Shown piece by piece: positions 37,518 through 43,062 of a DNA stretch of 64,000 bases. The stretch is taken from the NCBI RefSeq assembly GCF_009765975.1, contig NZ_LMUJ01000085.1:3454-67453 (forward strand), written 5' to 3'. The translations under genes were made by a program, and so were the position numbers. The number at the start of each line of letters is the position of its first letter. Position 1 is the stretch's first letter. The notes beneath the pieces are model-generated. The model searched no databases. It saw only the letters and a program-made list of their open reading frames with translations, and was not told the DNA's origin. Source of the stretch: Acidisphaera sp. S103. GTDB lineage: Bacteria > Pseudomonadota > Alphaproteobacteria > Acetobacterales > Acetobacteraceae.

Positions 37518-38336
37518 TCAACGGGTGGCCAGGTTGTGCAGCGCGCGTTCCGCGTCGGCGCGCAAGGCCGGATCGTGTGTCAGGTCGCGTGCTCGTTCGA
37601 GCCAGGTGCGTGCTTCCGCCGTATCGCCCTGGCCGGAAGCACTTTGCCCAGCCCGCAGATACAGATCCGCCGCCTGGGGTGCAGACGGCGTGAATTGCGC
37701 CGACAGCGCCAGCGCCCGAGCCATTCCGCGGTAATCCAATTGGTCTCGCCGCAGATCGGCGGCATGCAGCGCCAGGACTGGATCGTGCGACAGCCGCGCT
37801 TTCAGTTCCGCCGTATCCGCCGGGTCGGCGGCGGCGGTCATCGACGCCACGGCTTTTTCCAGGCCTGGCGTATCGCCGCGCTGGTCGGCGATAAGGCCGA
37901 TCAGGAACCATGCGGCATTGACCAGCGCGGAATCCTTGTCACCGGTCAGGCCCGTGGCGATGCGATCCGCTTCCGCCAGGTTTCCCAGCCGGAACTGCGC
38001 CGTCGCCGAAATCAGGTCGAAGCCGGCATCGGCGATGCCGCGCCGGGCCAGTTCGGTGCGCAGTTCCGCCGCCGTCTGCAGGGCATCCGCCGGCTTGCCG
38101 GCCCGCAACTCGGCGGTGGCGAGGTTGAAGCCGGCATCCGCGATCGCCGCGGCATCGTCCCGCACGCGCGCCCGGACCAACGCGGCACGATATTGCTCAG
38201 CGGCCTGATCCGGCTGTTCCAACTGGATGGCAATGTCACCCGCATGCCTGAGGCGAGAGAGCGTCGGGTCGATGGGGACGCCAGACGGTGCCGTGGAACA
38301 GCCCGCCAGCAGCAATGCGATCAGAACGCGCCTCAT
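37518..38336 (-). CDS. Lipoprotein with TPR-like repeats, Mla-type operon
   Basis: A 272-aa lipoprotein. MRRVLIALLLAGCSTA is a short signal peptide with a lipobox cysteine at residue 13. The mature protein is alpha-helical with TPR-like units (AAEQYRAALVRARVRDD; AADLYLRAGQSASGQGDTAEARTWLERARDL). Its ATG overlaps the MCE-gene stop by 4 bp. As last gene of the operon it may anchor the MCE protein at the outer membrane or act as a periplasmic scaffold. No known Mla component has this build, as far as I can tell. Confidence 0.78.
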   Translation of the reverse strand: MRRVLIALLLAGCSTAPSGVPIDPTLSRLRHAGDIAIQLEQPDQAAEQYRAALVRARVRDDAAAIADAGFNLATAELRAGKPADALQTAAELRTELARRGIADAGFDLISATAQFRLGNLAEADRIATGLTGDKDSALVNAAWFLIGLIADQRGDTPGLEKAVASMTAAADPADTAELKARLSHDPVLALHAADLRRDQLDYRGMARALALSAQFTPSAPQAADLYLRAGQSASGQGDTAEARTWLERARDLTHDPALRADAERALHNLATR

Positions 38337-39283
38337 GGTGTGACGTTGGCCGGCGACAGGCGGCTTGCCTCCGGCGCGGCAGAACCGGACAGCGGCCAAG
38401 TGTGACGCAACTGGTTCAGTGTCTTCTCCAGTTCCGCCATACTCTGTTGCGACTGGGTCAGCAGCGCGGGCAGGTTGGCCGTGCTGTCGGCGACGTTTCG
38501 GCTGATTGCCGGCAGCCGTGGGGTCGCGCTCGCCAGGTCGTGGGTCGCTTTCTGGACCGAGGCCAACGCGGCGTCCGCTTTGTGCAGCAAGGCCGGCACG
38601 CCATCGGGTGCCGCCGTCGATGCCACCAGCCCCCGAACATCGGCCAGCGTGGTGTTGAGCTGATCGGTGGCTGTTTTCAGATTGGTCAGCAACTGGGTCA
38701 ATTGGTTGACCATCTCCTCGTTCTTCACCAGACGGCCGATATCGCCGTGGCCCTGGGAAATGCCCTCCACGGTGTCCGCCAGGGCATGCATGGCTCGGCC
38801 GGCGTCGTCGAGAACCGGAAAGATCTTCGCCTTCACCTGGTCCACCATAGCGCCAATATTTTCGGTGGCGTCGCGTTCGGTTACCGCGTCGATCACCGCG
38901 AAATGCCAATCGAGCGGCGCGCCGGTGCCGCGCGAGATGTCGAGATACGCCGCGCCGGCAACGCCGAACTGCTTCTTCACCACCGCCTTGCTGTCGCGCC
39001 GGATGAAAGCCTCCGCCTGCTCGTCCAGTTGCGCCTCGGCGTACATCCGGTTCGGGTCGACCACGACACGGCGCACCGTGCCGACGCGCGTGCCCAACAA
39101 CTGGATGTCGGCACCGGCCGACAGGCCCTGACTGCCCGACTCCGGCAAGATCACGCGCAGGTCCACGGTGGGACGGAACCAGTCGCTCAGCAGCCCCGCA
39201 TGCAGCGCGGCGGCGACGAACAGGACGATGCTCAGCACCACCAGCAGGCCGACCCATTCGTCCGTATTGCGCAGGATTTTCAT
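38333..39283 (-). CDS. mlaD: MlaD/MCE-domain protein
   Basis: A 316-aa inner-membrane-anchored periplasmic protein. One N-terminal helix (about residues 9-31) is followed by a single MCE domain (VDLRVILPESGSQGLSAGADIQLLGTRVGTVRRVVVDP). A long helical, coiled-coil-prone tail (about 180-300) follows, with many Ala, Leu and Gln. MCE proteins form hexameric rings that carry lipids across the periplasm. The ATG at 39283 has GAGGTG upstream. It overlaps the lipoprotein gene by 4 bp. Confidence 0.88.
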   Translation of the reverse strand: MKILRNTDEWVGLLVVLSIVLFVAAALHAGLLSDWFRPTVDLRVILPESGSQGLSAGADIQLLGTRVGTVRRVVVDPNRMYAEAQLDEQAEAFIRRDSKAVVKKQFGVAGAAYLDISRGTGAPLDWHFAVIDAVTERDATENIGAMVDQVKAKIFPVLDDAGRAMHALADTVEGISQGHGDIGRLVKNEEMVNQLTQLLTNLKTATDQLNTTLADVRGLVASTAAPDGVPALLHKADAALASVQKATHDLASATPRLPAISRNVADSTANLPALLTQSQQSMAELEKTLNQLRHTWPLSGSAAPEASRLSPANVTP

Positions 39284-39293
39284 GCCGGGCACC

Positions 39294-39992
39294 TCACGCG
39301 ACACGCGCCGGCAGCCGGACCGGCATCAACGCGGCATCGGTCAGTCGCAATCGATGGGTCGGACGGACCGCTCGGTTGCGCAGCGCCGGCCCAGCATTGG
39401 CCAGCCATATCACGGCTGCGCCCTGGCCGCGTGCTTCGGTGCCGACATCCAGCAGGGCGGACAGCATGTCCTCATGCTGGGCGGCCAAAGGCAGTTCCAG
39501 GATCGCGAGGCGCGGCCGGCCGAGGAAGGCACGCACACAGGCGGCTCGGCGAAGGTCGGGCGGCGACAACAGCCTGGCGGGTCCCACCGGCAACCCGGGC
39601 AGGCCGAAACGCAGCGCGAGAACCGCCGCTTCCTCCCGCAACGCCGCCTCGGGAATGCGGGTGTGGTGCAGCCGCGCCAGCAGCACCCGCGATGCCACGT
39701 CACGGGTTTCCGGACGCAGCGGCTGGTGGAACAGCCGGCCGATATGACCGCGCAGCGCGTCGGCATGGGCGTCCGGCACGGTCTGCCAATCCCGACCCAG
39801 GAAGCGCACGCACCCGCTCGTCAGTGGGATGAGGCCGGTGCAAAGGTTGGCGAAACTGGCGCCTCGCCTTGGGCCGGGGACCTCGATCAGGGCGAAATCG
39901 CCCTCCGACAGGACCAGGTCGATCGGGGCATAGGGCAGGTACTCACCGACGCCGCAGGCGGCTTCGATCGCAAGGGTGGGTGGCGCGGTCAT
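39294..39992 (-). CDS. Degenerate ABC ATPase-like protein in Mla-type operon
   Basis: A 232-aa protein in the position of MlaF. The ABC fold can be aligned: beta-strand FALIEVPGPRRGASFANLCTGL sits at the Walker A position, GRLFHQP at the Q-loop, SPPDLRRAACVRAFLGRP at the signature and LAILELP at Walker B, with VIWLANAG at the H-loop. All catalytic residues are missing: no Walker A lysine, no SGG, no Walker B Asp-Glu, no His. It overlaps mlaE by 4 bp and lies 10 bp before the MCE gene. It is probably a non-hydrolysing structural partner of the permease. Confidence 0.78.
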   Translation of the reverse strand: MTAPPTLAIEAACGVGEYLPYAPIDLVLSEGDFALIEVPGPRRGASFANLCTGLIPLTSGCVRFLGRDWQTVPDAHADALRGHIGRLFHQPLRPETRDVASRVLLARLHHTRIPEAALREEAAVLALRFGLPGLPVGPARLLSPPDLRRAACVRAFLGRPRLAILELPLAAQHEDMLSALLDVGTEARGQGAAVIWLANAGPALRNRAVRPTHRLRLTDAALMPVRLPARVA

Positions 39993-40768
39993 AGCAGCGC
40001 GCTCAGCAGCAGCGTGACCGTCAGGATGCCGGTGACGCCGCGGGTGAAGCCGCGGGGCAGCAGGCTGGCGGGCGTATCGGTCTCGCTGGCGGCGAGGCCG
40101 GTCACGCAGCAGGACAGGGCGACGATCAGGCCGATCAACAGCAGCTTGGCCGGAAAGACGGCGAAATCGCCGATGCTCATCGCGCGCAGCATCGTGTCGA
40201 GGAAGCCGAAGATCGACGTGTTCACCACGCCGGCAAAACTGCCGGTGACGAAGCCGCTGAGCAGGCTGATCAGAAGGAACACCACGCCGAGGGTGAAGCC
40301 GGCGACCGCGAAGGCCGCGGCGCGCGGCAGCAGTAGGTACTGGAAAATATCGATCCCTTCGGCGCGCAGAATTTCGACCTCGCCTTCCGCCTTCAGCGCG
40401 CCGAGTTCGGCCACTGTTGCCGTGCCACCGCGCCCGAGCAAGATGATGCCGACCAGCAGCGGGGTGATCTCGCGAACCAGCACGATGACCAGGATGCGGC
40501 CGATCTGTTCCTCCTGTCCGGCGGTGCGCAACCAGTAGATCGCCTCGAACACCAGGCCCAGGCCGACGATGATCGCGGTCACTGCAATGGTACCCAGGGA
40601 GCCGCCGATCACGCTGGTCAGCGTGGTTCGGAAGCTGGCGCGCACCGTGCGCCGCCAGGTGGACGGCCATGTCCCCTCCCGCACTACGCCCCACAGCAGG
40701 GCCATGAGTTGGAGTATGTAAGCGGATCGCGAGCGCGTCGCGGCGCCGACGGTGCCGAGCGCGCTCAT
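39989..40768 (-). CDS. mlaE: MlaE-family (YrbE) ABC lipid permease
   Basis: Inner-membrane permease of 259 aa. The MlaE hallmark is present: REITPLLVGIILLGRGGTATVAELGALKAEGEVEILRAEGID, followed by LLLPRAAAFAVAGFTLGVVFLL and about five hydrophobic helices. It overlaps the receptor gene upstream and the pseudo-ATPase gene downstream by 4 bp each (ATGA). In known systems it pairs with MlaF for ATP-driven phospholipid transport; here the adjacent partner lacks ATPase motifs. Confidence 0.93.
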   Translation of the reverse strand: MSALGTVGAATRSRSAYILQLMALLWGVVREGTWPSTWRRTVRASFRTTLTSVIGGSLGTIAVTAIIVGLGLVFEAIYWLRTAGQEEQIGRILVIVLVREITPLLVGIILLGRGGTATVAELGALKAEGEVEILRAEGIDIFQYLLLPRAAAFAVAGFTLGVVFLLISLLSGFVTGSFAGVVNTSIFGFLDTMLRAMSIGDFAVFPAKLLLIGLIVALSCCVTGLAASETDTPASLLPRGFTRGVTGILTVTLLLSALL

Positions 40769-43062
40769 GCCCGCCCCGCCAGCACGTAGCTGCGTGCCGC
40801 GCCGGTGTGCGGTCGATGGAAAAGCCCGCGCGGACGGAACAGGAAATTCTGCCGCAGCAGCAGATAGGCCTGTTCGCTGGTCTGGATGGCCTCGGTTGGG
40901 GCGGATGAGGCGAGGGCGCCGGCGCCTTGCATGACCTCGCCCCAGATGTTGAAGAGGCCGGGCGCCGACCCCAACCGGGCGCCGAAGATGATCCCGACGT
41001 CGAGGCCCATGCTGAAGGCGGCCAGGCCGTCGGTGCCCTCGAACAGCACGATGCAGCGCTCGCGGAGGGCGATGGCGACGTCGGCAAGCCGGGTGGCGGC
41101 TTCGGCCAGATCTGATCCTGTCCTGATTCCGTAGCCGGTGGCGGCAACGATCGTCGTGCCCATCATTTTGACATAGGGGATGCCGTGGGCGGCGGTGATC
41201 TCCTGCGCCGCGCAGGCAGCCTGGTGCGTCAGGGATTCCTCGGTGTCGGGCAGGCGCAGCACCAGGACCACTGCCCGCGTGTGGGTTTCATCGATGGTGC
41301 CGGAGGCTGCCAGGATTGGGTCGAATCCGTGCTCATCCAGCGATGGTTCGGTCTCGGACAACATGCCCGTCGGGATAAGGGGAGGCGCGTCGGTCTCTGC
41401 TCCGGACAGCGCGGCAGGTGTGCCGAGGCCGACCAAGGTGGCGCAGGCACGGGCGAAATCGATCCCGGCGAGATCCCGCCGCGGGTCCTCCAGCGTCACC
41501 ATGCCGATCGGCTGTCCAGCCTTCGTCACCGGAACGGCGAACAGCGCGACACTGCCGATCTGGGTCATGATCGAGCCATGGAACGCGGCGGTACGGCGGT
41601 CCCGCCTTGCATCGGGCGTGTCGATCGTCTCGCCCGCGGCCAGCGCCTCGATCAGCGCCGGCAGTTCCTGCCGCGACAACTCCAACCCGGTGAGACGCGC
41701 GCCCGTCGCGGGCTCGAAGCTGTCGTCGCAATGCAACGCCTGGCGGCCCTCGGACAAGCGCCATATCCCAGCACGCCTGGCGCCGGTCGCCTCGGCCAGG
41801 GTTTCGGCCAATGCCGCGGGCGGACGGCCTTCGGCATCGAACATCCCTGCCTCCTCGGCCAGCCGCGCGAAGGCTGCGCTCTGTTGCCGTAGCACTGTCG
41901 AGCGTTCCGCCACCGTCCGCGCGGCTCGGTCTGCGCGCAGTCCCTGGCGCACCACCAGGGCCGCCAAACCGGCGGCCAAGGCGACCACGATCAGGGAGAG
42001 CAGCGCCGTCCGGCGCGAGTTGACGGCGACGAAGCCGCTGAATTCGGCTTCCGGCACGGTGATGAAAAGCAGCCAGCCCTGGGTGTTGTTCGCGAGCGGC
42101 GTGACGATCGAAATCATGCGCTCGCCGTTCACGCCGATGATGCGGTTGCCCGGCCCCTGCGTGCGGAAATGGTCCCAGCTCGCGGCGAGCCGGGGGTCGC
42201 CGACGGCATCGACCCGGGCTGGCATCAGCGTGCCGTCCTGCTTCGTCAGGATATGCGCGGGATCAGGGCCGGCGACCATCCGCCCGTCCCGTGTCGCGAT
42301 ATAGGCTCGGCCCGTGCGGCCAATGGAGAGGCCACCCAGAAAGCGGGAGATGGCGTCGAGCCTGATATCCACACCGACGACGTCGGGGTCTGGGTCGGGC
42401 CCATGCACCGCCGCGGTGATGCCCGGTGCCTGTTCGGAGAAGAAAACGTAGACGTCGCTCCAGAACACCTCGTTGATCGCTCGGGCGCCGATGAACCAGG
42501 AACGGGTACGGGCGTCGTAATTGTCCTTGGGGTCTGCGTGCTGCGAGATGATTTTTCCACTCGCGTCGCTTGTGGTCCATTCGACACTGCGTTTGCCGGC
42601 CGACAACAGGATGCGCTTCGTGTCGATGGCATTCGGCGGGCCGTTCGATGCGCGGGTAACGAGCATGAAGTTGCCCTGGGCGTCGGCGAACAGGACATTC
42701 TCGATCTGTGGCGTCTCGGCTAGTATCGAAGCGGAAAAGGTCCTCGCTTCGTTGGCGCGGGACGTGGCGCCCTCACGGCCAAGCATGCTGTGAGCCAGCA
42801 ACGCCGCATGGGCCGCCGGCTCGAGATAGGCCGAGACCTGCAGGGCGATGCGTTCTTGCGTGCTACGCAGCAAAGTCCCCGACAGGTCGAGGACGCCGGC
42901 GCGGTTGGCGCTGTCGGCATAGATGGTGATGCCGAGCAGGAAGCCGATGATCAGGCCGACACCGCCGATCGGTAGGCCGATGCGCAGCAAAGTCTGGCGC
43001 CGGCGCTGCCGTTCAGCCAGGGGATCGACCTCGACATCAACGATGTCCGTACGATCGGGCAA
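40765..43062 (-). CDS. Membrane receptor: Cache - GAF - degenerate class III cyclase domain
   Basis: A 765-aa inner-membrane protein. Helix 1 is at about 27-49. A periplasmic double-Cache-like domain (85-335) contains RSWFIGARA, and helix 2 is at 352-373. A GAF-like domain spans about 410-545. From 595 to 750 the sequence follows a class III nucleotide cyclase: VKMMGTTIVAATG, FSMGLDVGIIFGARLG, LFNIWGEVMQ, IQTSEQAYLLL, FLFRPRG. Both metal-binding Asp positions and the Asn-Arg pair are replaced, so it should not make cAMP. It is the first gene of the Mla-type operon and overlaps mlaE, suggesting ligand-gated control of transport. Confidence 0.82.
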   Translation of the reverse strand: MPDRTDIVDVEVDPLAERQRRRQTLLRIGLPIGGVGLIIGFLLGITIYADSANRAGVLDLSGTLLRSTQERIALQVSAYLEPAAHAALLAHSMLGREGATSRANEARTFSASILAETPQIENVLFADAQGNFMLVTRASNGPPNAIDTKRILLSAGKRSVEWTTSDASGKIISQHADPKDNYDARTRSWFIGARAINEVFWSDVYVFFSEQAPGITAAVHGPDPDPDVVGVDIRLDAISRFLGGLSIGRTGRAYIATRDGRMVAGPDPAHILTKQDGTLMPARVDAVGDPRLAASWDHFRTQGPGNRIIGVNGERMISIVTPLANNTQGWLLFITVPEAEFSGFVAVNSRRTALLSLIVVALAAGLAALVVRQGLRADRAARTVAERSTVLRQQSAAFARLAEEAGMFDAEGRPPAALAETLAEATGARRAGIWRLSEGRQALHCDDSFEPATGARLTGLELSRQELPALIEALAAGETIDTPDARRDRRTAAFHGSIMTQIGSVALFAVPVTKAGQPIGMVTLEDPRRDLAGIDFARACATLVGLGTPAALSGAETDAPPLIPTGMLSETEPSLDEHGFDPILAASGTIDETHTRAVVLVLRLPDTEESLTHQAACAAQEITAAHGIPYVKMMGTTIVAATGYGIRTGSDLAEAATRLADVAIALRERCIVLFEGTDGLAAFSMGLDVGIIFGARLGSAPGLFNIWGEVMQGAGALASSAPTEAIQTSEQAYLLLRQNFLFRPRGLFHRPHTGAARSYVLAGRA

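Follow-up and report, generated by a model that had tools for sequence, protein, structure and literature searches.

ATP hydrolysis is the defining trait of ABC transporters, and both the energy supply and the lipid direction of MCE systems are still debated. In the MlaF2E2D6B2 complex, the ABC subunit MlaF contacts the permease MlaE via the coupling helix (PMC7790496, in the portion available to us), and in E. coli replacement of the MlaF Walker A lysine (K47R) abolishes both ATPase activity and function (PMC5016091, likewise accessible only in part). Among other MCE systems, Pqi and Let are described as tunnel systems without an ATPase domain (accessible portion of PMC12436622), and the simplified Mla systems of Veillonella and Brucella do without MlaA/MlaC and have long proteins of the MlaD type, for which a role in bridging the envelope has been proposed (PMC10665443 and PMC12436622, each in part). 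In the same excerpts, MlaF of such systems closely resembles the proteobacterial one (PMC10665443) and MpcF is an ABC ATPase homologous to MlaF (PMC12436622), and neither a pseudo-ATPase nor a cyclase-like sensor is mentioned. In the mycobacterial Mce systems the ATPase, MceG, is shared, as far as the partial source goes. Loss of catalytic residues in an ABC nucleotide-binding domain (NBD) is familiar from the heterodimers TAP, TM287/288 and BmrCD, which, according to the excerpts available, keep one competent site per pair.

Here we describe an operon in which the ABC subunit is almost certainly a pseudo-ATPase. It lies in the window (the whole 64,000-nucleotide stretch of Acidisphaera sp. 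S103 that was analysed) and consists of five tightly packed genes, encoding a dCache-GAF-cyclase-like sensor, MlaE, the pseudo-ATPase, a long MlaD and a TPR lipoprotein. The features are as follows, with the pseudo-ATPase motifs placed by the family/MlaF alignment.

37518 to 38336, minus strand: TPR protein with a lipobox (LLLAGC), from TPR matches and the lipobox
38333 to 39304, minus strand: MlaD/MCE protein (P0003) with a single TM helix, a single MCE domain and a helical C-terminal part of about 150 residues (Pfam PF02470, 3e-11)
39294 to 39992, minus strand: pseudo-ATPase gene, encoding an MlaF-like ABC NBD fold without catalytic motifs (P0001, 232 aa)
39393 to 39407, minus strand: H-loop region, residues 196-200 WLANA, with His replaced by Asn199; Trp196 is a family hallmark
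39489 to 39509, minus strand: altered Walker B, residues 162-168 LAILELP, with Asp replaced by Glu166 and the catalytic Glu by Leu167
39549 to 39569, minus strand: degenerate ABC signature, residues 142-148 LSPPDLR for LSGGxxx
39855 to 39881, minus strand: degenerate P-loop, residues 38-46 VPGPRRGAS, with the Walker A Lys replaced by Gly44
39989 to 40768, minus strand: MlaE-family permease, the partner subunit (P0002; Pfam PF02405, 2.9e-36)
40765 to 43062, minus strand: sensor (P0004) with dCache at about 42238-42723, GAF at about 41428-41811 and a class III cyclase-like domain at about 40768-41280 (Pfam)

The operon resembles MlaFEDB in its MlaE permease, its MlaD/MCE subunit, an ABC-fold subunit in the place of MlaF and overlapping genes. 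It differs in that the ABC subunit has no catalytic motif, and so there is no competent MlaF ATPase, in its longer MlaD, and in the addition of the cyclase-like sensor and the TPR lipoprotein; Pfam finds no STAS/MlaB domain among the five operon proteins. The long MlaD recalls the Veillonella and Brucella systems. The TPR protein, probably an outer-membrane lipoprotein, although its outer-membrane placing is inferred, recalls the outer-membrane lipoprotein of Pqi, a system in which PqiA (LetA in Let) stands where the present system has an MlaE-type membrane subunit together with an ABC-fold subunit. The MlaD model is weak (pLDDT 67.3), and its nearest solved chains by Foldseek are Mce1, the top match, and MlaD, a likeness to the mycobacterial system. 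Unlike the heterodimers above, the operon has just one NBD gene, and the product of that gene lacks the motifs for both halves of the ATP site.

The gene itself is in good order. Translation of 39294-39992 on the minus strand gives 232 amino acids and a stop, with no internal stops, and the gene overlaps mlaE (39989-40768) by 4 bp on its upstream side and mlaD, which has a GTG start, by 11 bp on its downstream side; overlaps of 4 bp also occur between the sensor gene and mlaE and between mlaD and the TPR gene. Its codon adaptation index (CAI) is 0.653, within the 0.624-0.720 of the other four operon genes, and its two wrong frames score 0.575 and 0.382. The initial annotation had proposed an ABC ATPase-like protein with an intact frame, an overlap with mlaE, codon use like that of its neighbours, and the strings GPRRGAS, SPPDLRR, LAILELP and VIWLANAG at the positions of the catalytic motifs. 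Each of these readings was reproduced, with the strings at residues 40-46, 143-149, 162-168 and 194-201, respectively.

The kinship of this protein to ABC ATPases by sequence methods alone is weak. Pfam gives no match at E<=1, hence no ABC_tran; NCBIfam FtsE matches at 2e-6 with 27.6 bits, far under its cut-off of 264.85, and OppF matches at 4.9e-7 in phmmer. Among the 15 members of an alignment of the motif-less family (A2), six match PF00005 at E<=0.01. In contrast to these weak matches, an AlphaFold2 model built from an alignment of 15 window and locus sequences is confident (pLDDT 90.9, pTM 0.89). Foldseek returns a best match at E 1.4e-14, and VIA-align superposes the model on LolD with Z 24.3 (220 residues, 2.8 A) and on E. 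coli MlaF 6xgz with Z 22.4 (226 residues, 3.0 A). A non-ABC fold, which would have refuted the initial annotation, was rejected on this evidence, and the comparison with MlaF that it had called for bears out the ABC fold.

The loss of motifs extends to the whole family. We aligned 80 non-redundant family members, selected at an HMM score >90 bits with an HMM built from motif-less members, against 34 MlaFs of ordinary Mla loci, near-identical rows having been removed beforehand. The Walker A pattern GxxGxGK[ST] is absent from the window protein and from all 80 members, and the Walker A Lys is found in 0/80 members versus 34/34 MlaFs. At the signature, Ser is kept in 39/80, the first Gly in 2/80 and the second in 8/80, and the remaining motif residues are mostly lost too: Walker B Asp 2/80, D-loop Asp 2/80, H-loop His 1/80, catalytic Glu 11/80 and Q-loop Gln 13/80, each of these, like each signature residue, being present in 34/34 MlaFs. 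Taken per protein, 27 members retain none of the eight catalytic residues, 34 retain one (among them the window protein, with Ser143), 15 retain two and four retain three, so that the maximum is 3/8 for any family member compared to 8/8 in every one of the 34 MlaFs. The loss seen in the window protein is thus shared by all 80 members. Mean Jensen-Shannon conservation in the family versus MlaF falls to 0.19 versus 0.74 in the P-loop and 0.19 versus 0.68 in the D-loop, whereas it stays at 0.52 versus 0.58 in the post-Q/coupling segment and 0.58 versus 0.60 in the helix after the signature. The lost catalytic sites are therefore the unconstrained ones in this family. New hallmarks have also arisen, with W69 and R81 in 80/80 members and P135, H110, E166 and W196 in >90%.

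Non-canonical binding of ATP or another ligand could still occur, there being no biochemistry, and Glu is strongly kept at the position of the Walker B Asp. A stronger version of this idea is that nucleotide is still bound and used through a rebuilt, non-canonical site, for example around Glu166, for which the Glu in 75/80 members and the other new invariants W69, R81 and H110 could be cited. We regard it as very unlikely, because the P-loop and D-loop are the least conserved of the measured segments, which is unlike an active site, and because the Walker A Lys, the signature Gly-Gly and the H-loop His are all missing.

The distribution of the family is wide but patchy. Within the genus, orthologues of the pseudo-ATPase occur in 3/32 genomes (71, 69 and 61% identity); one further orthologue, from another genus, has 44% identity, and the remaining matches are weaker, at <=34%. 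In a profile search of Acetobacteraceae, 61/200 genomes matched at E<=3.3e-35, with a gap before the next match at 1.7e-23; sequence was read for 33 of the 61, and matches past such score gaps, where read, are ordinary ABC ATPases. A sample of the class yielded 5/337 matches, four in the window's own family and one in another. Beyond the class, family matches were found in 38/288 Verrucomicrobiota, in 1/247 Desulfobacterota (an already known member) and, within the order to which one Chromatiaceae member belongs, in 4/147 genomes. In this last, gammaproteobacterial search, two further genomes (G1133 and G1238) and a second copy in G563 entered the count with their motifs unread. When a genome collection, of 84,980 species by its own description, was scanned with the first alignment, it gave 15 loci, all 15 without motifs, from Acetobacteraceae and other Alphaproteobacteria, a Desulfobacterales MAG, two Chromatiaceae MAGs, a Verrucomicrobiales MAG and a PVC MAG. 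The members read overall come from Alphaproteobacteria (mostly Acetobacteraceae), Chromatiaceae, one Desulfobacterales MAG and Verrucomicrobiota/PVC. No plasmid copy matched at 1e-15. Several profile-search rows from Acetobacteraceae and Verrucomicrobiota were reported with one internal stop; those that yielded loci (L077/L190, L120, L124, L144) have an open frame over most of the domain in HMM scans. The patchiness suggests horizontal transfer, loss, or both.

This distribution bears on whether the gene is simply a decaying mlaF. The catalytic motifs are gone and an orthologue is present in only three of the 32 same-genus genomes, as might be expected of a recent wreck. However, the frame is intact, an equal loss is found in 80/80 members of an ancient clade, and the gene is under purifying selection: dN/dS of the pseudo-ATPase is 0.255 (window-L032), 0.245 (window-L031), 0.182 (L031-L032) and 0.032 (L036-L038), and that of MlaE is 0.372, 0.326 and 0.120 for the first three pairs. 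No close homologue with intact motifs, which would have exposed this copy as a recent wreck, was found. Shared loss, the MlaE clade described below and dN/dS together led us to reject a recent pseudogene, which we consider virtually ruled out, and the initial view that this is not a decaying gene stands (dN/dS 0.03-0.26, motif loss shared by 80 members).

Because the family profile had been built on motif-less members, we also ran a control based on MlaE, using 20 further Verrucomicrobiota MlaE loci outside those already read. At 17 of them a lower-scoring MlaE (78-124 bits) adjoins an NBD whose Walker A and SGG are intact. At another locus (L242, G855), mlaE and mlaD form a pair for which no neighbouring ABC ATPase gene was found, and two (L245, L246) carry the family's own MlaE apart from the family's ABC gene. 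Full-length MlaEs scoring >150 bits to the family MlaE profile adjoin motif-less subunits or, in those two genomes, lie apart from them. In a tree of 85 MlaEs, in which long branches were flagged, a single branch (SH-aLRT 85) sets off all 66 partners of motif-less subunits, and support rises to 99 when the MlaE of locus L101 is included as sister, with ordinary MlaEs outside. In the ABC subunit of L101, Walker A (GGAGTGKT) and a Walker B survive, PPG replaces SGG, and the rest reads N; this half-degenerate protein (L101/L192; G564, C132), known from one MAG, is possibly a transitional state. The ABC tree supports the motif-less clade at 100; the free tree places it outside MlaF, and constraining it to group with MlaF improves the likelihood by 6.03 lnL (p-AU 0.64). 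The motif-less subunits are thus well established as a monophyletic, ancient family.

The partnership with MlaE is conserved as well. At 29 distinct proteobacterial and Desulfobacterota loci, the motif-less subunit stands beside MlaE in 29/29, with a cyclase-like domain in 29/29, MlaD in 27 and TPR in 26; all five genes occur together in 26/29. At 39 Verrucomicrobiota/PVC loci, the subunit is beside MlaE in 36, with MlaD in 37 and TPR in 33, and all three are present in 32/39; some contigs end inside the operon in these counts. The pseudo-cyclase sensor is not adjacent at nearly all Verrucomicrobiota loci, a related domain being found in 1/39, and the sensor is therefore not universal.

Where the sensor is present, its cyclase domain appears to be inactive as well. 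In P0004 the domain matches PF00211 at 22.6 bits (cut-off 21.9), the only PF00211 match in the window's genome, and the solved adenylate cyclase 7yzi is matched at 2e-8 by phmmer. The catalytic roles of class III cyclase residues are known, and neither the transition-state Asn nor the Arg is found in any of 37 sensor-type cyclase rows (32 distinct, five being second locus copies), whereas nine CHASE2 cyclases serving as controls in the same alignment keep both. Of the metal-binding Asp pair of P0004, the presence of the first hinges on a small alignment shift, and the second is Thr in the window and kept in some relatives. Judged by the missing Asn and Arg, the sensor cyclase domain is itself a pseudoenzyme, the second of the operon.

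These observations raise the question of whether the MlaE-pseudoMlaF-MlaD unit is mainly a signal transducer, which would sense the lipid state of the envelope and report it through the cyclase-like sensor without bulk lipid transport. Cyclase-family proteins do lie near the system in both major clades, as the pseudo-cyclase at 29/29 proteobacterial and Desulfobacterota loci and as intact CHASE2 cyclases 4-5 kb downstream in nine Verrucomicrobiota loci. However, a pseudo-cyclase without catalytic Asn and Arg makes no obvious signal, and the long MlaD and outer-membrane-type lipoprotein favour a transport path, leaving this a quite improbable reading.

We instead lean towards a lipid-conducting MlaE-MlaD machine in which a motif-less MlaF-like dimer serves as scaffold and regulatory adaptor rather than as motor. 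Given that K47R kills MlaF activity (PMC5016091, as far as that source is accessible), a natural family without the Walker A lysine should not run the known cycle. The family lacks this lysine, yet its MlaE-facing segments and the coupling-helix region of MlaE are kept; for this reason a scaffold or adaptor is the role we think somewhat better than even. The surface argument rests on sequence segments, not on coordinates. The initial suggestion that the protein is kept for structure or regulation gains support from the residue loss, the purifying selection, the monophyletic family and the conserved MlaE operon; the role itself remains inferred.

In the mechanism we propose, the pseudo-ATPase would take the place of MlaF within an MCE complex of MlaE and MlaD that transports lipid. 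Two copies are inferred to dock on the MlaE coupling helices through the conserved helical and post-Q segments, as MlaF does, and the docked pair would hold the MlaE dimer in shape, with no ATP hydrolysis presumed at this subunit. Lipid may then pass via MlaE and along the MlaD tunnel, either to the outer membrane or away from it (its direction being inferred), and it might be driven down a gradient or by another energy source. At the outer membrane, the TPR lipoprotein would anchor the tunnel. As for regulation, we propose only tentatively that a periplasmic Cache domain binds a ligand, upon which the cytoplasmic pseudo-cyclase dimer would act on the pseudo-ATPase or MlaE and so open or close the path, protein-protein gating thereby substituting for the nucleotide cycle.

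Alternatively, the MlaE dimer of this operon could draw its power in trans from an intact MlaF whose gene lies elsewhere, the pseudo-ATPase being a regulator or heterodimer partner. The window's genome (G000) does encode an intact MlaF beside its own MlaE (C58) and an MlaF-type match on C98, 69% identical to Acetobacteraceae MlaF, whose neighbours are unread. Eight other genomes with the family have ordinary MlaE loci with an adjacent intact MlaF; the exceptions are L101, which is half-degenerate, and L109, a short contig on which none was seen. Mycobacterial Mce systems offer a precedent in sharing one ATPase, MceG (PMC9947336, in the part available). A heterodimer would leave both composite ATP sites broken, however, since the motif-less partner supplies neither Walker A nor signature. 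In addition, the motif-less subunit retains the segments on its coupling side, and its gene is found next to this MlaE at 29/29 and 36/39 loci. We consider MlaF in trans unlikely, but not excluded, because the genome has MlaF-type genes elsewhere. The same genome has one more mlaE, after alr (L150:6689-7474, C104), with no mlaF or mlaD adjoining; this gene and the C98 match (L256) are apparently a split ordinary Mla locus.

Returning to the scaffold and adaptor reading, it is interesting to speculate whether ATP was given up by a whole branch of the ABC-type transporters of lipid, one that spans Pseudomonadota, Desulfobacterota and Verrucomicrobiota at the least. The ABC subunit of this branch would have become a purely structural and regulatory adaptor and, in Proteobacteria, the nucleotide switch would have passed to a ligand-sensing pseudo-cyclase, such that two pseudoenzymes gate an MCE lipid tunnel. 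This wider picture is no more than a working possibility. The motif-less MlaF-like family is itself a new variation on MCE/Mla transporters. In the literature searched, which left preprints and most subscription papers outside its scope, neither an MlaF family devoid of motifs nor a cyclase-like sensor in an MlaE operon was found to be described. These loci may have been overlooked because, according to the accessible part of PMC10665443, its Mla tree was built on MlaD and MlaE of MlaDEF and MlaDE clusters, the MlaF annotation being uncertain. A selected natural family with MlaE, MlaD and an ABC fold and no ATP site separates the roles of ABC scaffold and ATP. In addition, since Pfam gives nothing for the window protein at E<=1, surveys of MlaF that use generic ATPase profiles may miss or misname these loci.

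The operon is not always contiguous. In two congeners (L002, L003; G006, G008), mlaD, at 70-71% identity, lies on another contig, away from the sensor, mlaE and pseudo-ATPase genes, and in the two control genomes with a separate family MlaE (L245/L134 in G658, L246/L135 in G672), mlaE does not share a contig with the pseudo-ATPase gene and mlaD. An apparent TPR-cyclase fusion at the Verrucomicrobiales locus L151 was discarded, as its frame crosses two stretches of N. Downstream of the system, an SH3b protein and an M48 peptidase occur in about half of the Verrucomicrobiota loci, with homologues in 16 other loci among 30 compared. The loci with CHASE2 cyclases are L158, L160, L162, L165-L167, L133, L136 and L137; SH3b and M48 neighbours were read in some of them, and at L167 an M48 peptidase and a CHASE2 cyclase were both read nearby.
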